A stretch of 64,000 bases of DNA from Sphingobacteriales bacterium (lineage in GTDB: Bacteria; Bacteroidota; Bacteroidia; Sphingobacteriales; Sphingobacteriaceae): contig JAATFQ010000175.1 of the NCBI GenBank assembly GCA_015655115.1, positions 1 through 64,000 of the forward strand, written 5' to 3'. Positions within the stretch are counted from its first letter, which is position 1. Each line of letters opens with the position of its first letter. This document shows, one piece after another, positions 2,958 to 13,031 of this stretch. A program made the translations under genes and the position numbers. Under the pieces are notes generated by a model that was given only the letters and a program-made list of their open reading frames with translations, did not search any database and was not told the origin of the DNA.

Positions 2958-4175
2958 ATGGGAACTCACAATTATAATTTAACTGAGCAGTTTGAGTTTA
3001 CAGGAAAGGCGAAAACTTTAAGTATCATAGCTATCGTAATCGGTATTGCTAGTGTTGCTTATGGTTTTACTGATCATGAACTTCATGAGCGGACTTTTGC
3101 CAACCTGTTACTGATGGCATATTATTTTGCCTGTGTATGTATGTCGGGCGTTTTCTTCTTGGCTGTTCAATTTGTAGCACAGGCCGGATGGTCTGCTTCT
3201 ATACTTCGTGTACCACAGGCAATGGCTAAAACGCTGCCTATTGCAGTAGTCATCCTGATTGCCGTTATCGGTGCAGGCTTAGCTACGCATAATCTTTACC
3301 ACCACTGGCATGCCGAAGGACTGACTGATCCTAATTCGCCAAACTATGATAAACTGATCGACGGTAAATCTGCCTTTCTGAACGTTCCTTTCTTTATGGG
3401 GCGCCAGGTGATTTTCTTAGGGATATATTGCTTTTTCGCTTTATTGCTTTCTAAGTTATCAAATAATGAAGATTTAGAAGGTGGTTTAAACTCTTATACG
3501 AAGAGCTTTAAATATTCATGTATATTTTTAGTGATCTATGGTTTCACTACGCCCATATTTGCGTTTGATACAGTGATGTCGTTAGAAGCGCACTGGTTCT
3601 CTACTATGTTCGGCTGGTATAATTTCGCAGCAATGTGGGTGAGCAGCCTGGCTACGATGGCAATCATTATCATCCTTTTAAGAAAAGCGGGATACATGCA
3701 ATGGGTAAACAATAGCCACCTCCATAACCTGGGACAATTCATATTTGGTTTCTCTATATTCTGGACTTATGTATGGTTTGCACAATTTATGCTGATCTAT
3801 TATGCCAACATGCCTGAAGAAACTGTATATTTTTATAAAAGGTTCGAGTTCTATAAATTGTGGTTCTTCCTCAATTTAGTACTGAACTTCTTATCTCCGG
3901 TATTGTTATTGATGGACCGTGATAATAAAAGACAGGAAAATATCCTGCTGGCTGTATCGATAGTAGTATTGTGCGGTCACTGGGTAGATTATTACCAGAT
4001 GATTATGCCAGGTGCTGTAAATGACGGTACAAACGGATTTGGTATTCCTGAAATTGGAACAGCTATAGGTTTTGTAGGGTTGTTTACATTTACAGTATTG
4101 ACTGCATTGAGTAAGAAACCATTAATTGCAAAGAATCACCCTCTTTTATCAGAGAGTTTGAATCATCATTTGTAG
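2958..4175 (+). CDS. actF: Alternative complex III quinol:cytochrome c oxidoreductase membrane subunit ActF
   Basis: 405 aa polytopic NrfD-like protein in act operon. Confidence 0.87.
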   Translation: MGTHNYNLTEQFEFTGKAKTLSIIAIVIGIASVAYGFTDHELHERTFANLLLMAYYFACVCMSGVFFLAVQFVAQAGWSASILRVPQAMAKTLPIAVVILIAVIGAGLATHNLYHHWHAEGLTDPNSPNYDKLIDGKSAFLNVPFFMGRQVIFLGIYCFFALLLSKLSNNEDLEGGLNSYTKSFKYSCIFLVIYGFTTPIFAFDTVMSLEAHWFSTMFGWYNFAAMWVSSLATMAIIIILLRKAGYMQWVNNSHLHNLGQFIFGFSIFWTYVWFAQFMLIYYANMPEETVYFYKRFEFYKLWFFLNLVLNFLSPVLLLMDRDNKRQENILLAVSIVVLCGHWVDYYQMIMPGAVNDGTNGFGIPEIGTAIGFVGLFTFTVLTALSKKPLIAKNHPLLSESLNHHL

Positions 4176-4237
4176 TTTTGGGAATAGAGGGTTTATCAAT
4201 TAATATAGTAGAAGTACATCGTACTACTTTTAAGAAA

Positions 4238-5500
4238 ATGAGTTTAAGAAAATTTATAAGCAATAAGACGATAGCGGCCCTGGCAGTAATTGTTACTGTG
4301 TTTGCAAATACCAGCGCATTTGCACAAGAAGCTGCCGCGGGTGCTGCCACTGCGGCTGTCGCAAAACCTGTTGATATGTTTCCGATTTATAAATCGATAG
4401 CATTTTATGCCATGTTATTTTTACTGCTATGCTTATTTATAGCAATAGTAGGAAAAGCAATGAGGGTGTATGAATTGACACGTGAAGCCCAGGAAAAATC
4501 CGCTGGTATTAACTGGGATACTGTTAATGGTGTACTTTTTGTACTTTTCTTAATCGTTGGATTGTACGGTGTTTATTTTGAATATACTGTCCACGGACAT
4601 ATGATACTGCCGGATGCAGCGTCTGAACATGGTCAGAAAATTGACCAGATGTTCAATATCACGCTGATCCTGACTACGATAGTATTCATCGGTACACATA
4701 TTGTATTGTTCTCGTTTTCTTATTTTTATAAGCACTCAGGAAAAAGAAAAGCATATTACTACCCTCATAATAATGCGTTAGAGCGTATCTGGACTATTGT
4801 TCCTGCTTTAGTGCTTACCGTATTGGTACTGATGGGGTTCCTTACCTGGAGATCTATCTTCTTTAAAATTGAAGACCCTAATCATAAACCTTTGAGTATC
4901 GAAATTACTTCTCAGCAGTTTGCGTGGACAATCCGTTATCCTGGAGCTGATGGAGTGGTAGGTTTGAAAAACTATAAATTGATTACTGGTGTCAATGCCT
5001 TAGGAATGGATTTCAAGGATAAAAACAACCTTGATGATCAAACTGCTGATGAGCTGGTGATCCCTGTAAATAAGCCGGTGAGACTGATCTTAACGAGTAA
5101 AGATGTGCTGCACAGTTTCTATATGCCACATTTCAGGATCCAGCTGAATACAGTTCCGGGTATGACTTCATATTTTGAATTTACACCTACAATTACTACT
5201 GCAGATATGCAGACTAAAGTAAATGACCCAGCCTTTAAATTCCTTTTTTACTGTTCAAAAATTTGCGGATCTGGTCACTACAACATGCAAAAGGTGGTTA
5301 GAGTGGTTTCTCAGGCTGAGTATGATGCCTGGGTAATTAAACAACCTAAGATTATCAACAATGATTTGAGAAAGGCATTTAATTTACCAATAGTACCAGA
5401 AGCAGCAGCACCTGCGGCATCGGCACCAGCTGATAGCACCGCAAAACCTGCGAAAGATTCTGCTGCTGTAGCAATGAACAAACCGGCTTTAAAAAAATAA
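4238..5500 (+). CDS. coxB: Cytochrome c oxidase subunit II
   Basis: CuA motif CSKICGSGHYNM; signal peptide after MSLRKFISNK; ORF track start (TTG 4178) probably too early. Confidence 0.92.
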   Translation: MSLRKFISNKTIAALAVIVTVFANTSAFAQEAAAGAATAAVAKPVDMFPIYKSIAFYAMLFLLLCLFIAIVGKAMRVYELTREAQEKSAGINWDTVNGVLFVLFLIVGLYGVYFEYTVHGHMILPDAASEHGQKIDQMFNITLILTTIVFIGTHIVLFSFSYFYKHSGKRKAYYYPHNNALERIWTIVPALVLTVLVLMGFLTWRSIFFKIEDPNHKPLSIEITSQQFAWTIRYPGADGVVGLKNYKLITGVNALGMDFKDKNNLDDQTADELVIPVNKPVRLILTSKDVLHSFYMPHFRIQLNTVPGMTSYFEFTPTITTADMQTKVNDPAFKFLFYCSKICGSGHYNMQKVVRVVSQAEYDAWVIKQPKIINNDLRKAFNLPIVPEAAAPAASAPADSTAKPAKDSAAVAMNKPALKK

Positions 5501-5520
5501 TTATACTGGAATAGCGCATT

Positions 5521-7419
5521 ATGTCAACTATAACATTAAACGATACACATAACAACGATCACCATGACGGTCACGACCATGGTCATCACAAACAATCTTT
5601 TATAACTAAATACGTATTTAGCCAGGATCACAAAATGATCGCTAAACAGTTTTTGATAACTGGTATCGTTATGGCTGTTATTGCAATGGGATTGTCCATC
5701 TTATTCCGTATCCAACTGGCATGGCCAGATAAAAGCTTTCCTTTCCTGGAGACGTTTTTAGGGAAATGGGCTGAAGGCGGAAGGATTAAACCTGACTTTT
5801 ACCTCGCACTGGTTACTATACATGGTACCATAATGGTGTTCTTTGTACTGACGGCAGGACTGAGTGGTACTTTCAGTAATTTACTGATCCCTCTGCAATT
5901 GGGGGTAAGGGATATGGCATCGCCATTTATGAATATGCTGTCGTACTGGTTTTTCTTTACTGCATGTGTGATCATGATGGCTTCATTCTTTATTGAAACA
6001 GGGCCTGCAAGTGCAGGTTGGACGGTATATCCGCCTTTATCTGCATTGCCTAAAGCTATTCCCGGTTCAGGATTAGGGATGACGTTGTGGTTAGCAAGTA
6101 TGTTCATCTTTGTGGCCTCACAGTTAATGGGTGGTATCAATTATGTGAGTACAGTGCTGAACATGCGTACTAAAGGGATGGACCTCTGGAAAATGCCTTT
6201 AACAATCTGGGCTTTCTTCCTTACTGCTATATTGGGTATCTTATCTTTCCCTGTATTGGTGGCTGGTGTGGTACTGCTGATCTTTGACCGTAGTTTCGGT
6301 ACAAGTTTCTACTTGTCTGATATTGTTATGGGTACGCAGGTATTGCCTAATCAGGGTGGTTCTCCAATCTTATGGCAGCATTTATTCTGGTTCTTAGGTC
6401 ACCCTGAGGTATATATTGTAATCATGCCTGCTTTGGGTATCTCTTCTGAGGTGATTTCGGTAAATTCAAGAAAACCTATTTTCGGCTACCATGCGATGGT
6501 TTATTCATTGATTGGTATTACTATTTTATCATTTATTGTATGGGGTCACCATATGTTTGTAACGGGAATGAACCCGTTGCTGGGGGGGGTATTTATGATC
6601 ACGACGCTGATCATTGCTGTACCTTCTGCTGTAAAGACTTTCAATTATCTGGCTACGCTGTGGCGCGGTAATATCAGGTTTACACCTGCTATGTTGTGTG
6701 CTATCGGTATGGTTTCCTTTTTTATCTCTGGTGGTTTAACCGGTATATTTTTAGGTAATGCATCACTGGATATCAACTTACATGATACTTACTTTGTTGT
6801 TGCCCACTTCCACCTGGTGATGGGATCTGCAGCTATTTTCGGTATGCTGGCAGGTGTTTATCACTGGTATCCTAAAATGTTCGGAAGAATGATGAATGCT
6901 AAACTGGGTTACCTGCACTTCTGGGTTACTTTCATTTGTGCTTACCTGGTATTCTTCCCGCTACACTTCTTAGGTTTAGATGGTGTGCCACGCCGTTATT
7001 ATGCATTCACCGAGTTTGAGTTTATGCAGAAATGGGTTACTGTGAATATATTCGTTACCTGGTCTGCCATCGTTGCTGCTTTAGCACAGGTTGCCTTCCT
7101 GTTTAACTTCTTCTATTCTATATTCTTCGGTAAAAAAGCTACTCAGAATCCTTGGGAAGCAAATACTTTAGAATGGACTACCCCTGTTGAGCATATCCAT
7201 GGTAACTGGCCGGGAGAGATCCCAACAGTATACCGTTGGCCATATGACTACAGTAAGCCAGGTGCTGAAGAGGATTATATTCCTCAGACTGTCCCTTACT
7301 CACAGACTATGAGCTCTAACATGCCTCACGATTTTGAGGGCAATGCTGAATCTGAACGCATACAAAGGGAATGGGATGCGAAAAATAATCCTGATAAAGC
7401 TGATGTTCACTTTCATTAA
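5521..7419 (+). CDS. coxA: Cytochrome c oxidase subunit I
   Basis: WFLGHPEVYIVIMPALG, WGHHMF, DTYFVVAHFHLVMG heme-copper oxidase motifs. Confidence 0.96.
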   Translation: MSTITLNDTHNNDHHDGHDHGHHKQSFITKYVFSQDHKMIAKQFLITGIVMAVIAMGLSILFRIQLAWPDKSFPFLETFLGKWAEGGRIKPDFYLALVTIHGTIMVFFVLTAGLSGTFSNLLIPLQLGVRDMASPFMNMLSYWFFFTACVIMMASFFIETGPASAGWTVYPPLSALPKAIPGSGLGMTLWLASMFIFVASQLMGGINYVSTVLNMRTKGMDLWKMPLTIWAFFLTAILGILSFPVLVAGVVLLIFDRSFGTSFYLSDIVMGTQVLPNQGGSPILWQHLFWFLGHPEVYIVIMPALGISSEVISVNSRKPIFGYHAMVYSLIGITILSFIVWGHHMFVTGMNPLLGGVFMITTLIIAVPSAVKTFNYLATLWRGNIRFTPAMLCAIGMVSFFISGGLTGIFLGNASLDINLHDTYFVVAHFHLVMGSAAIFGMLAGVYHWYPKMFGRMMNAKLGYLHFWVTFICAYLVFFPLHFLGLDGVPRRYYAFTEFEFMQKWVTVNIFVTWSAIVAALAQVAFLFNFFYSIFFGKKATQNPWEANTLEWTTPVEHIHGNWPGEIPTVYRWPYDYSKPGAEEDYIPQTVPYSQTMSSNMPHDFEGNAESERIQREWDAKNNPDKADVHFH

Positions 7420-7437
7420 TATCAATTTTTAAAATAT

Positions 7438-7483
7438 AAAATGAGGTTACAGACTAAGTACATACTTAGCCTGACCTCATTTT
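7438..7483 (+). terminator. Hairpin downstream of coxA
   Basis: AAAATGAGGT ... ACTAAGTAcatACTTAG ... ACCTCATTTT inverted repeat in the coxA-ctaA gap. Confidence 0.6.
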
Positions 7484-7539
7484 CATTAGTATCTCCCTGC
7501 TGTTTTTAAGCTGTATACTGGTGATGGCTTTTTACATAC

Positions 7540-8616
7540 ATGTCAATGGTTCCCAAATCTGAGAATAGATTTATCCGGTTAAACCTTATTACTATTATCA
7601 TTACGTTGGTACTTATCCTTGCAGGAGCAGTTGTACGTAGTACAGGTTCTGGTATGGGGTGTCCTGACTGGCCTAAATGTTTTGATCAGTATGTTCCACC
7701 GACGGATGTAGATCAGCTGCCAAAAGATTACAAAGAGAAGTATGTTGCTGGCAGGATTGCCAAGAATGAGCGCTTTGCTAAGCTGCTCGACAAGATGGGC
7801 AAGAGCAATCTGGCAGATAGTATCAGGCATGATCAGACGATTACTGTACCTGAAACATTTAATGTCGCTAAAACCTGGACGGAATATATCAACAGGCTGA
7901 CAGGTGCGGTTACAGGATTTTTATTGCTGGGGCTGATGATACTTTCCTTTGTGTATCGAAAAAAGGCAAAGAGGATCGTTGTACTGAGTTTCATCAATCT
8001 TATCGTCGTATTCTTCCAGGCATGGCTTGGATCGATTGTGGTCTCCACAAACCTGCTTGCATGGATAGTAACGGTCCACATGCTATTGGCCCTTGTGATA
8101 CTAGCCATATTGGTTTATACGTATTATTATAGCAGTAACCTGTACAAGCAGAATACGACTGTGATTGCCAATGTATTCTGGTTAAAACTTTTGATACTAC
8201 TGGCAATAGTGGTTAGTGTTGTGCAAATAACGCTGGGTACTGAAGTGAGGGAAGCTATAGATGCCGTTTCAAAGCAGCTGCTTTATGGGCAGCGTGATAC
8301 CTGGGTAGCTAAAATAGGGAGTATATTTTCTTATCACCGTGATATGGCAGTGGCCCTTGTTGTTGTTAACCTGTTTGTTTATCAGCTGGTGGCCGATAAA
8401 TTTGGAGGCAAAGCAACGGAGCTGAGATTAGGTAATTCTATTGCACTGGTATTACTTATACAGATTGCAAGTGGATTAATATTGTCTAACTTTGCACTGC
8501 CACCATTTTCACAAGTTATACATTTAGTGTTCTCAACCGTTCTATTTACGCTGCAGTTTTATCTCTTCCTGCTGGTATACAGGACTGACACTTATACAAA
8601 TATTAAAACAAATTAG
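7540..8616 (+). CDS. ctaA: Heme A synthase, CtaA/COX15 family
   Basis: GAVVRSTGSGMGCPDWPKCFDQYVPP and EYINRLTGAVTG motifs. Confidence 0.9.
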   Translation: MSMVPKSENRFIRLNLITIIITLVLILAGAVVRSTGSGMGCPDWPKCFDQYVPPTDVDQLPKDYKEKYVAGRIAKNERFAKLLDKMGKSNLADSIRHDQTITVPETFNVAKTWTEYINRLTGAVTGFLLLGLMILSFVYRKKAKRIVVLSFINLIVVFFQAWLGSIVVSTNLLAWIVTVHMLLALVILAILVYTYYYSSNLYKQNTTVIANVFWLKLLILLAIVVSVVQITLGTEVREAIDAVSKQLLYGQRDTWVAKIGSIFSYHRDMAVALVVVNLFVYQLVADKFGGKATELRLGNSIALVLLIQIASGLILSNFALPPFSQVIHLVFSTVLFTLQFYLFLLVYRTDTYTNIKTN

Positions 8617-8618
8617 AA

Positions 8619-9524
8619 TTGAAGTTATTTTTCTCAGATTTATCTAAGCTCATCAAATTCCGCCTTACTTTCCTGGTGGATTTCTCAGCGTCAGTTACTT
8701 TTCTGATTGGATCAAGAATGCAGGTGGCCAGGGGCGAGATGCCTGCTATTGACTGGGGCAACTGGTGGATACTGGTAGCCGGGGGGTTTTTAGTTACTGC
8801 AGCAGCAAATTGTTTTAACGAGATTATTGAAAAAGACCTTGATAAATTAATGACGCGTACAAAGGACCGGCCAATGGCTGCCGGGAGAATGACTACAGGA
8901 CAGGGTCTGGTGATGGGTTTGGTAATGGGAATGTTGGGTACGTGGTTATTAGGTAAACTAAACCTGGAAACAGGTTTGTTGTCTGTGTTCTCCATTTTTA
9001 TATATGCCTTTATCTATACTCCATTGAAACGTAGGGCACCAATTCTGGCTGTGTTTATAGGTGCTATTGCAGGTGCTTTTCCGCCGTTAATCGGTTATTT
9101 GGCCGCGCTAGGGCATATCCGTCATTTCTTTCCTATCGACTATGAAATTGCGATTATATTGTTCCTTATACAATTTGCATGGCAGTTCCCACATTTCTGG
9201 TCTATTGCATGGGTACTGGATGATGATTATAAACTGGCGGGCTTCAGGTTTTTGCCAACAAAGAAGAGAGATAAAGGGAGTGCGATCGTAATTTTTGTGA
9301 GTACACTGGTATTGATTGCCGTGAGTCTGCTGCCTACTATTTATGGTTTCGGAGGCTATTATATTGCTGGGGTCTCTATACTTGCCGGACTGATTTTTGC
9401 ATATCTGGCATTTAAATTGGTGGTGAAACTGGACATAGAAAGTGCACGCAGAGTGATGTTCTGTTCTTTCTTTTATATCCCACTGGTACAGTTGATTTTG
9501 TTATTTGATTTTATAGGTAAATAA
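8619..9524 (+). CDS. ctaB: Protoheme IX farnesyltransferase
   Basis: UbiA-family motif KDLDKLMTRTKDRPMAAGRM; adjacent to ctaA; TTG start. Confidence 0.9.
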   Translation: MKLFFSDLSKLIKFRLTFLVDFSASVTFLIGSRMQVARGEMPAIDWGNWWILVAGGFLVTAAANCFNEIIEKDLDKLMTRTKDRPMAAGRMTTGQGLVMGLVMGMLGTWLLGKLNLETGLLSVFSIFIYAFIYTPLKRRAPILAVFIGAIAGAFPPLIGYLAALGHIRHFFPIDYEIAIILFLIQFAWQFPHFWSIAWVLDDDYKLAGFRFLPTKKRDKGSAIVIFVSTLVLIAVSLLPTIYGFGGYYIAGVSILAGLIFAYLAFKLVVKLDIESARRVMFCSFFYIPLVQLILLFDFIGK

Positions 9525-9531
9525 GGTTTAT

Positions 9532-10122
9532 ATGGTACATACATTACAACAGGAAGATCTGATTCAGGATGCTGATGGTTCTTCAAAAGCTAAGAAATTT
9601 ATTCTATGGCTTTTTGTGGTATCCTCAACAATTATGTTTGGAGGATTTACCAGTTATTATATTGTGTTTGCAGCATCAAAAGGTAAGGGACATGGTTTAG
9701 TGCTTCCTGATGTGTTTATATATAGCACATTGGTACTGGTGCTGAGCAGCATATGTCTGTTTTTTGCTGCAAAGGCTGTACGTAATCAGAATGTGCAGAC
9801 ACAAAAGATACTTTTATGGTTTACACTTATATTAGGAGCAACTTTCGGTTATTTACAGGTGGATGCCTGGACAGCTTTATATCAAAGCGGAGCTACGCTT
9901 GTAAACAACAATGCGGCTATTTCTGTGATATATATTGTGTCTGGAATGCACTTATTGCATATTTTCGGTGGACTTTGTATCATTATCAATAGTCTTTGGG
10001 GTGCCTATGCTAAAGTTTCTCATCCAACAGCAGTATATCGTATAGAAATAGCTTCAATATTCTGGCATTTTATTGATATATTGTGGATATATCTTTATGT
10101 TTTTTTACTTTTGAACAGTTAG
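9532..10122 (+). CDS. Cytochrome c oxidase subunit III-like protein (copy 1)
   Basis: 196 aa, GMHLLHIFGGLC and FWHFIDILWIYLY motifs. Confidence 0.85.
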   Translation: MVHTLQQEDLIQDADGSSKAKKFILWLFVVSSTIMFGGFTSYYIVFAASKGKGHGLVLPDVFIYSTLVLVLSSICLFFAAKAVRNQNVQTQKILLWFTLILGATFGYLQVDAWTALYQSGATLVNNNAAISVIYIVSGMHLLHIFGGLCIIINSLWGAYAKVSHPTAVYRIEIASIFWHFIDILWIYLYVFLLLNS

Positions 10123-10152
10123 ACTTTTTAACAAACTATTACAATTTTTAAA

Positions 10153-10860
10153 ATGGATTCATTGACACAATTAGATCAGGTAAAAACTACTCCATGGAGC
10201 GGAGGTCGCTCTCCGTGGTCGGTAGAATACGGAAAAATAATGATGTGGTTTTTCTTGCTATCAGATGCATTTACATTCTCTTCATTATTGGTATACTACG
10301 GCGCGCAGCGTTTCACAAAGTTCACATGGCCAGATCCTGATTTGGTATTCCAGTCTATTCCTGGTATAGTGGAAACCGGAGCTCCATTGGTATTTGTGGG
10401 TATCATGACTTTTATCCTGATCATGAGTTCGGTAACGATGGTCCTTGCTGTTGAAGCCGGGCACAGACGTGCTAAAAATGAAGTAATTGGCTGGATGATA
10501 GCTACCATTATTGGAGGTTTTATGTTTTTGGGCTGTCAGGCTATTGAGTGGACACACTTACACCATGAAGGTTTCTGGTGGGGTACTATTCCTGCTGCTG
10601 AGCATTTACAACAGTTCTTTACTGGTCCTGTGTCTGATGTTGCCGCACAACAGTTTGCTAACCTTTTCTTTACAATTACCGGATTCCACGGATTTCACGT
10701 TTTTACCGGAGTGCTTATAAATGTTATCATTCTTTGTATGACCATCAACGGGACATTCGAGAAACGTGGCCATTACCTGATGGTAGAAAAAGTAGGTCTT
10801 TACTGGCACTTTGTTGACCTGGTTTGGGTCTTCGTATTTACCTTCTTCTATTTAGTATAA
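10153..10860 (+). CDS. Cytochrome c oxidase subunit III (copy 2)
   Basis: GFHGFHVFTGVLIN and YWHFVDLVWVFVF motifs. Confidence 0.9.
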   Translation: MDSLTQLDQVKTTPWSGGRSPWSVEYGKIMMWFFLLSDAFTFSSLLVYYGAQRFTKFTWPDPDLVFQSIPGIVETGAPLVFVGIMTFILIMSSVTMVLAVEAGHRRAKNEVIGWMIATIIGGFMFLGCQAIEWTHLHHEGFWWGTIPAAEHLQQFFTGPVSDVAAQQFANLFFTITGFHGFHVFTGVLINVIILCMTINGTFEKRGHYLMVEKVGLYWHFVDLVWVFVFTFFYLV

Positions 10861-10912: not shown

Positions 10913-11266
10913 ATGTCTGAACATAACACACACACAACAGGAGAGCATGGGCATGATGAGCATGTCGGCTTAAGCAAAGGAAAAATATGGCAGGTATTTT
11001 TTATCTTATTAGGAATAACTGTTATAGAGTTTATCATTGCACTGGTAATTTTGCCTAAAGGCCTTATTCCTCATACTGCAGGGAATATAGCTTATATCTT
11101 ATTGACGCTGCTTAAGGCATATTATATTGTTGCTTTCTTTATGCACCTGAAATTTGAAAAAGTTGGCCTGCAATTATCACTGGGACTCGCGTTTATTTTT
11201 ATCATCTACTTTATCACGCTGATGCTGATAGAGGGCGGCTACCTGCACATACATATGAACGTTTAA
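10913..11266 (+). CDS. Cytochrome c oxidase subunit IV-like (COX4_pro family)
   Basis: Three TM helices, FMHLKFEK motif, downstream of subunit III. Confidence 0.8.
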   Translation: MSEHNTHTTGEHGHDEHVGLSKGKIWQVFFILLGITVIEFIIALVILPKGLIPHTAGNIAYILLTLLKAYYIVAFFMHLKFEKVGLQLSLGLAFIFIIYFITLMLIEGGYLHIHMNV

Positions 11267-11269
11267 TTC

Positions 11270-11977
11270 ATGAAGCTAGCTTCAATAAAAAAAGTATTAA
11301 TCCTGGTATCGATTTTAGCGGTACCGGGATTTTTATATTATGAGCTCGTGGAACAGGGCAAGAACAGGTATAAACCTCTTCCCTTTTTCGGGCCTAAAAA
11401 AGTGGCTGCTACTTTTCATACAAAGAGAGGACAGAAAATTCCTGATACTTTATATCACCAGCTTCCTGATTTTAAATTCGTTAACCAGTTGGGGGACACA
11501 GTAAAATGGGATACCTACAAAGGGAAAATACTTGTGCTGGACCTTTTCTATGTTAAAGGGAATAATTATGCGGTAGACTTCGCCAATAAGGCTATGAAAG
11601 TATTTGTGAATACGTATGGCAAGAATCCGCTTATCCATTTTGTCGGATTAAGTATAGACCCGGTAAGGGACACACCTGTGGCATTGAAACTGTATGCTGA
11701 TCAGCTTTCTGCCAGCGCTGGCAAATGGGACCTTCTGACAGGTGATAGTACTGCTATTTATAACTGGGTAAATAAGGGCTTATTTATAGATGCCCAACAG
11801 GAAATAGTAAATGGTGAGCATAAGTTTACCTATAGCAATATGTTTGTGCTGCTGGACTCCCAGCGCCATATACGTGGTTACTATGAAGCAACAAACCAGG
11901 AGTCGCTCGCTAAACTGGACGATGAAATTAAAGTGCTTGTTGCCGAGGAACTGAGAAATTTAAATGATGGCCGTTAG
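11270..11977 (+). CDS. SCO1/SenC-family thioredoxin-fold protein lacking the CxxxC motif
   Basis: SCO-like LSIDPVRDTPVALKLYA, KWDLLTG, MFVLLD; N-terminal TM; no Cys in whole protein. Confidence 0.8.
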   Translation: MKLASIKKVLILVSILAVPGFLYYELVEQGKNRYKPLPFFGPKKVAATFHTKRGQKIPDTLYHQLPDFKFVNQLGDTVKWDTYKGKILVLDLFYVKGNNYAVDFANKAMKVFVNTYGKNPLIHFVGLSIDPVRDTPVALKLYADQLSASAGKWDLLTGDSTAIYNWVNKGLFIDAQQEIVNGEHKFTYSNMFVLLDSQRHIRGYYEATNQESLAKLDDEIKVLVAEELRNLNDGR

Positions 11978-12003: not shown

Positions 12004-12576
12004 ATGAAACTGAACGACAAATTCTTTTTAAGGCTGATCTGGATAGTGAGCGCCGTGGTATTATTGGTAGTCATTATCTTAAAGGTTATTCCTCCGCCGC
12101 AGTATAAGCCATCTTTTATCTATTTATTACCCCATGTAATTGGTGGCATTAATGCGACATGTGCTGTGTTGCTGGTGATTTCATTAATCTTTATCAAAAG
12201 GAAAAATATCCAGGCACATAAGGTTACCAATGTAATCACCTTTATCTTATCAGCTTTATTTCTGGTTTTTTATATCCTTTTTCACCTTTATGAGAAAGAT
12301 ACTAAATACGGAGACCTTGATCATAACGGTGTGCTTTCTGCTGCTGAGCTTGCCGCGGTAGGCATCACCAGAATAATTTACTTTGTAATTTTGATTACAC
12401 ATATCATCCTTGCAGTAGTAGTACTGCCATTGATCCTGATTAGCTTTTTACGCGGTTTCAGCATGCAGATTGAGCGCCACCGCAAGATTGTGAGATGGGC
12501 TTATCCGATCTGGTTATACGTGGCTGTTACGGGGGTTATCGTCTATCTGATGATCTCGCCTTATTATAATTTTTAG
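12004..12576 (+). CDS. DUF420 (CtaM/YozB-like) membrane protein with EF-hand loop
   Basis: Polytopic, conserved HLYE / LITHI motifs, oxidase assembly locus; DLDHNGVLSAAE. Confidence 0.8.
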   Translation: MKLNDKFFLRLIWIVSAVVLLVVIILKVIPPPQYKPSFIYLLPHVIGGINATCAVLLVISLIFIKRKNIQAHKVTNVITFILSALFLVFYILFHLYEKDTKYGDLDHNGVLSAAELAAVGITRIIYFVILITHIILAVVVLPLILISFLRGFSMQIERHRKIVRWAYPIWLYVAVTGVIVYLMISPYYNF

Positions 12577-12719
12577 GCACGCTGTCCTTCGCATATCCAT
12601 TTACTGCTTCTGCCATCGTGCGCTGTAAGCTATAAGGATATAGGTAAGCCTTGTTCATTTTGATTTTGTAATGACGTAATGTTATGCGGGCTTTACCGTT
12701 TTATAACTATATTTATACT

Positions 12720-13031
12720 ATGAAGAAGATTGTCTGTTTTATTCTTTTCGTTTTAATGCTCTCAGCTTCAAACGTTACCGTAGTTTCTGCACAGTGTGCG
12801 ATGTGTGCTATCAGCGCAGATCAGGGTACTAAGCACGGCAATACACAGGCAAAAGGGATTAACTCGGGGGTGATATACCTGATGGTAATTCCTTATATCC
12901 TCATTGCTGGTTTGGGTGTGCTGTGGTATAAAAAATACTATACACCACGTGCACAACGTGCTCAATATTCTCCGGAAAACCCGGACGCTTTGCATTCTCA
13001 ATCCTCCCCAGGTTCTTCTCATTTTTCATAG
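12720..13031 (+). CDS. Small single-TM protein with signal peptide and CxxC (SAQCAMCAIS)
   Basis: MKKIVCFILFVLMLSASNVTVVSAQCAMC...; probable start at 12720 rather than 12684. Confidence 0.75.
   Translation: MKKIVCFILFVLMLSASNVTVVSAQCAMCAISADQGTKHGNTQAKGINSGVIYLMVIPYILIAGLGVLWYKKYYTPRAQRAQYSPENPDALHSQSSPGSSHFS

Follow-up and report, generated by a model that had tools for sequence, protein, structure and literature searches.

A SCO1/SenC-family protein without copper ligands is conserved in the cytochrome oxidase operon of Pedobacter

The operon and its SCO-family protein

The DNA analyzed here is a stretch of 64,000 nucleotides from a Sphingobacteriaceae genome (assembly GCA_015655115.1, contig JAATFQ010000175.1), referred to below as the window. 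It carries, on the forward strand, a cytochrome oxidase operon. The region at 2958–10860 holds an ActF-like gene, coxB, coxA, ctaA, ctaB, and two subunit III-like genes; ctaA and coxB were identified by Pfam, and the others we take to be ActF, coxA, ctaB, and subunit III based on their position. CoxB (subunit II; 4178–5500) has an intact CuA motif, CSKICGSGHYNM, at 5252–5287, as had been claimed in an earlier reading of this DNA made from the sequence alone (the sequence-only reading). CoxB was found in 76 of 80 named loci, nearly all of them labelled Pedobacter, and the C...C...H..M pattern of the CuA site was present in 76/76. The operon continues with oxidase subunit IV (COX4_pro by Pfam; 10913–11266), whose stop codon is separated by 3 bases from the start codon of the gene under study (11270–11977), and, 26 bases downstream of the latter, with a DUF420 membrane protein, a CtaM-like oxidase assembly factor (12004–12576). 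The SCO gene follows cox4 in all 80 named loci, and DUF420 comes next in 79. DUF420 corresponds to the CtaM family; CtaM, an oxidase assembly factor, is required for the activity of aa3/caa3 oxidases in Staphylococcus and Bacillus by a mechanism that has not been assigned (PMC9145763). CtaM is a different protein from SCO, with its gene placed after the SCO gene, and is likely a neighbor in function.

Downstream of DUF420, at 12684–13031, we noted a small membrane protein with a CAMC motif directly after its predicted signal peptide. It was observed in 48/80 Pedobacter loci, with a CxxC every time, and also occurs close to the cox locus in many Bacteroidia besides Pedobacter; it has no Pfam family and is possibly a periplasmic thiol or metal-binding partner. 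One locus among the Pedobacter rows (L232) comes from a record named "Flavobacteriaceae bacterium PS02338". The locus is of the Pedobacter type, its SCO is 52% identical, and the record is probably misnamed.

SCO1/PrrC proteins bind copper through a CxxxC motif and a distal His, and metallate or reduce CuA. The ORF at 11270–11977 (forward strand, ATG start) encodes a protein of 235 amino acids that contains no Cys at all, so the CXXXC of copper-binding SCO proteins is absent, and a Tyr occupies the position of the distal His. The protein matched PF02630 with an E-value of 1.4e-11 and 44.9 bits (curated cut-off 22.8), and comparison with PDB sequences returned Bacillus Sco structures (E 2e-8). 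The LSIDPxxDTP and KWxxLTG motifs are present. An AlphaFold2 model, for which the alignment input was 79 Pedobacter sequences, had a mean pLDDT of 86.3 and consisted of an N-terminal helix (residues 6–28), a beta-hairpin, a thioredoxin-like domain, and a C-terminal helix. The first of these is predicted to be hydrophobic, matching the membrane anchor of SCO1/SenC proteins. Among the best 18 PDB neighbors of the model, 15 were Sco chains (from Bacillus, Bradyrhizobium, human, yeast, and Arabidopsis) and three were Aquifex aq_2194 chains; TM-scores of the Sco matches, by target length, were 0.70–0.79, in keeping with a Sco-type thioredoxin fold. The product is a true SCO1/SenC protein by sequence, predicted fold, and locus, and the earlier description of a Cys-free SCO-family protein of 235 residues was borne out by the ORF, the PF02630 match, and the fold. 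That it belongs to a different thioredoxin-fold family is ruled out by the Pfam match, the PDB sequence and fold matches, and the presence of CxxxC...H in sister orthologues. We refer to it as the pseudo-SCO; a PF02630 annotation by itself does not make a protein a copper chaperone.

Alignment with canonical SCO proteins placed the two CxxxC cysteines at G97 (window 11558) and V102 (window 11573). Both lie in a former copper loop, FYVKGNNYAVDF (11546–11581), that is one residue longer than in canonical SCO proteins and is now highly variable, based on the alignment and column entropy. The former distal-His site reads KFTYSNMF (11822–11845), with Y188 (window 11831) at the ligand position. The sequence-only reading was therefore correct that both the CxxxC and the distal-His sites had been lost, and this loss extends across Pedobacter. 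The distal-His position is Tyr, Phe, or Ile in all Pedobacter rows except one. The exception, L111 (genome G201), is the sole genus member with a His at the ligand position; both of its Cys are gone, and the His is probably a chance reversion.

Repeated loss of the ligands within the family

The CxxxC motif was absent from all 80 named Pedobacter loci, and 78 of these had no Cys whatsoever. A sequencing error or frameshift at 11555–11590 is ruled out, as 67 readable orthologues of the GTDB genus and the 80 named loci (two overlapping sets) all lack CxxxC and have open frames. In the GTDB family of the window, 186 cox-locus orthologue rows were read, one of which ends at a contig edge before the copper loop. 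CxxxC and His were intact in 34 of the 186 rows, and CxxC with His was found in two. The Cys pair was kept and the His gone in 36 rows (genera g3 and g14, and one row of g7). The Cys pair was gone in 113 readable rows, comprising g1 (Pedobacter), g5, g8, g15, g16, g17, g18, g25, and two rows in g14, with the His retained despite this loss in g15, g17, and part of g18. This family-wide reading rules out that the loss is limited to the present assembly or to Pedobacter. The idea that the Cys-less form is conserved at this locus throughout Sphingobacteriaceae held for Pedobacter, in which none of the 80 loci had CxxxC, but not for the family as a whole, given its 34 intact rows.

Several forms of partial loss were observed. 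In a large sister clade, the SCO appears thiol-only, with CxxxC present and the distal His replaced by Tyr, Phe, Leu, Val, or Ala (L060, L061, and L307 in g3; L048 and L257–L287 in g14). Two g14 members, L259 and L282, subsequently lost the Cys pair too. In other rows CxxxC has become CxxC, the thioredoxin spacing, either with the His (L076 and L313, g20) or without it (L064, g7). These CxxC forms could represent a switch to plain thiol-disulfide chemistry.

To place these changes, we used a maximum-likelihood tree computed without the ligand columns. Outside the family, the cox-locus orthologues on the tree had CxxxC and His in 24/24 cases, and the ancestral state is thus the intact one. The tree has at least eight changes for the Cys pair and at least eight for the His, of which well-supported branches force five each; the exact count is uncertain because the deepest branches have weak support, and the g5 and g8 rows sit on long branches. 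With these same weak deep branches and long g5 and g8 branches, a single origin of all losses is ruled out on the tree. Ligand loss has been repeated within the family, with intermediates. CxxxC...H is found in sister genera at the positions that align with the former sites, and the pseudo-SCO lineage itself thus once had a copper site.

Constraint on the gene and other copper handlers

Among Pedobacter loci, 21 independent near pairs gave a median dN/dS of 0.097 for the pseudo-SCO, and the same comparison gave 0.074 for cox4, 0.058 for coxB, and 0.036 for DUF420. The gene is under purifying selection and is not decaying. This selection, together with the recurrence of the loss across the family, goes beyond what the sequence-only reading had recognized.

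Conservation is unevenly distributed along the protein. The N-terminal transmembrane helix (residues 6–28; 11285–11353), predicted by AlphaFold2, lies in a low-entropy stretch (residues 1–43) with a conserved sequence, and its P19 is invariant or nearly so in all groups. It is followed by a juxtamembrane linker and beta-hairpin (11354–11458) whose N32, Y34, L37, G41, D59, T60, and H63 are conserved in Pedobacter, in the other Cys-less lineages, and in intact family members. Kept likewise in Pedobacter and the other Cys-less lineages, as is P19, are W153, L194, D196, R202, G203, Y205, E219, and E226. The C-terminal helix and tail, ATNQESLAKLDDEIKVLVAEELRNLNDGR (11888–11974; helix from the AlphaFold2 model), are more conserved in Pedobacter than in the intact-SCO genera. 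Mean column entropy, uncorrected for the narrower phylogenetic span of Pedobacter, was 0.74 in Pedobacter versus 1.32 in intact genera for the C-terminal helix, and 0.70 versus 0.97 for the membrane segment and linker. This bias would lower Pedobacter entropy everywhere, and the robust part of the comparison is therefore the rise in the copper loop, where Pedobacter reaches 2.18 bits; intact cox-locus orthologues have 1.04 and canonical SCO lipoproteins 0.35. As judged by the alignments, constraint has shifted, with the copper loop freed and the membrane segment, linker, and C-terminal helix conserved.

The source genome (a draft, 81% complete) encodes two intact SCO lipoproteins on another contig (C241), elsewhere than the cox locus. 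These have CPTICP (L001) and CTSICP (L002) at the copper loop, both with the His, and so the second, Cys-containing SCO that the sequence-only reading had suggested looking for does exist. A strong canonical SCO match was found in 59/61 genomes of the genus; the exceptions are G223 (80% complete), in which the pseudo-SCO is present and no second SCO was seen, and G227 (92% complete). Exactly one CoxB was found in 25/26 genus genomes, with none in an incomplete draft. In the 18 single-SCO genomes whose sequence was read (six in the family and 12 in the class), the cox-locus copy was intact every time; single-SCO genomes are either related to the family or distant from it and are non-independent samples, so that the link between ligand loss and a second SCO lacks phylogenetic independence, and a nominal Fisher test on them is given no weight. 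Within these limits, ligand loss was seen only where a second SCO exists, with the incomplete draft G223 as an apparent exception.

The same earlier reading had also suggested PCuAC as the other copper carrier, and this was not supported, as 0/41 Pedobacter genomes matched PF04314. Cox11 was likewise not detected in any of the 41 genomes, nor Caa3_CtaG in any of 26, and control genomes were positive in each search. None of the three is therefore a candidate substitute carrier, within a search that sees only homologues above the cut-off. With PCuAC, Cox11, and Caa3_CtaG undetected, no CuB chaperone of the Pedobacter aa3 oxidase was recognized by way of known families. At one locus (L379; 229–1311 and 3356–3970), a small CxxCH cytochrome c lipoprotein comes after an intact SCO lipoprotein, with another intact SCO 2 kb away; adjacency of an SCO lipoprotein and a CxxCH cytochrome was observed in 10/30 canonical SCO loci examined.

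A probable copper-free role and known SCO systems

The ligand-free pseudo-SCO is genuine, conserved, and recurrent. Its job is probably a copper-free one, because the ligands were lost several times independently and the gene has nevertheless been kept in the oxidase operon under strong selection. As to what that job might be, we hypothesize, with a probability of roughly 0.6, that the pseudo-SCO is anchored in the membrane and, without catalytic activity, serves the assembly of the aa3-type oxidase encoded in the same operon as a docking factor, and that copper reaches the CuA site of the single CoxB from a separate, intact SCO lipoprotein. We infer this function from the sequence comparisons. 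An SCO of the ancestral type would carry copper and also dock on the oxidase, using its membrane segment, linker, and C-terminal helix. Once a second SCO had taken over copper delivery, the copy in the cox operon would have been free to lose its ligands and still dock. These three conserved segments would then bind CoxB, CtaM/DUF420, or another part of the oxidase, and docking may keep CoxB or the second SCO in position while CuA is assembled. Subfunctionalization of this kind is the most economical reading; the loss, the selection, the retention in the operon, the second SCO, and the single CoxB were observed, and the takeover of copper delivery, the identity of the docking partner, and the function of docking are its presumed elements. 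More tentatively, and with a little less than an even chance in our estimate, SCO proteins in general have a copper-independent oxidase-docking function that is separable from their copper chemistry, and one bacterial family has repeatedly split the two onto two genes, with the cox-operon pseudo-SCO docking and an unlinked SCO lipoprotein carrying copper.

Other roles were considered. Rather than a transient factor, the pseudo-SCO could be a structural subunit that stays in the oxidase for good, or in an alternative complex III-oxidase supercomplex encoded by the operon. Its gene is kept between structural and assembly genes in 80/80 loci, its conservation is highest in the membrane segment and C-terminal helix, and the small subunit IV has a similar dN/dS; however, orthologues with an intact CxxxC and His occupy the same place, which points to an origin in assembly, and we consider a structural role unlikely. 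A copper-free role outside CuA assembly, for example in redox-stress signaling or with another ligand in the remodeled loop, has a precedent in the proposal for plant HCC2, which is without copper ligands, is dispensable for oxidase activity, and rescues the stress sensitivity of a yeast sco2/sod1 mutant (PMC3971200, PMC6307045, PMC6696091). Because HCC2 is dispensable in this way (PMC3971200), a role of the pseudo-SCO outside assembly is possible, and the partner of the conserved transmembrane and C-terminal helix segments could have nothing to do with CuA assembly. Yet a protein with no Cys is incapable of direct thiol redox chemistry, the variability of the copper loop within Pedobacter argues that no new conserved site has arisen in its place, and the strict operon location favors a role with the oxidase, which together make this alternative quite unlikely.

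We regard two further readings as very improbable. One is a new type of metallochaperone, in which the pseudo-SCO would continue to bind copper with residues other than the lost ligands, for instance H63 and H50 in the linker hairpin. H63 is conserved in at least 93% of every group, but equally so in intact SCO proteins, and is thus not a replacement; H50 is kept in just 39% of other Cys-less lineages, and loss of the Cys pair did not bring with it any group of two or more conserved His/Met. The other is that the gene is a decaying relic, made redundant by the second SCO and kept by its operon position only. The repeated erosion of the ligand site, a loop free to vary, and the intact paralogue in the genome would fit a relic. 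Decay is ruled out by the dN/dS, however; moreover, no frameshifts or stops were found in the orthologues read, the gene was kept wherever a family genome that was read has the locus assembled, and the conserved segments agree across independent losses.

The docking hypothesis bears on whether SCO proteins have a function besides copper handling, a question raised by plant HCC2. The family constitutes a graded natural experiment, with Cys-less, intact, and partial-loss genera (CxxxC without His, His without Cys, and CxxC spacing). It sits in culturable bacteria that have a single CoxB and no recognized PCuAC, Cox11, or Caa3_CtaG, and in such bacteria a copper-independent SCO function would be directly measurable.

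The pseudo-SCO shares with the SCO1/SenC CuA copper chaperones, such as Bacillus subtilis YpmQ/BsSco and Bradyrhizobium ScoI, its family, predicted fold, single membrane anchor, cytochrome oxidase locus, and the LSIDPxxDTP and KWxxLTG motifs. It differs from them in having lost both Cys and the distal His, that is, the defining CXXXCXnH site. In the SCO pairs of Paracoccus, yeast, and human, neither member is known to lack the copper site. These pairs (Paracoccus ScoA/ScoB, yeast and human Sco1/Sco2) are two SCO paralogues per oxidase with divided or overlapping roles (PMC9145763), an arrangement like that proposed here for the pseudo-SCO and SCO lipoprotein. No description of a ligand-free bacterial SCO was found in the open literature searched.

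The closest counterpart is Arabidopsis HCC2, an SCO without copper ligands that exists next to an intact HCC1 and is of a kind reportedly common in plants (PMC3971200). According to published reports, HCC2 interacts with the metallochaperone module and complements a yeast sco2 mutant, a finding described in a review as "very surprising" (PMC6696091). It retains five other cysteines (PMC3971200), and thiol or copper chemistry through these is not fully excludable according to the authors of the yeast study (PMC6307045), a caveat that the Pedobacter orthologues without any Cys remove. Both proteins lack the two Cys and the His and have an intact paralogue in the same organism. HCC2, however, is nuclear-encoded, mitochondrial, and Cys-containing, whereas the pseudo-SCO has no Cys, is encoded in a cox operon, and arose through losses that recur within one bacterial family. 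That the losses are local, inside Sphingobacteriaceae, makes it near certain that the pseudo-SCO originated independently of HCC2.
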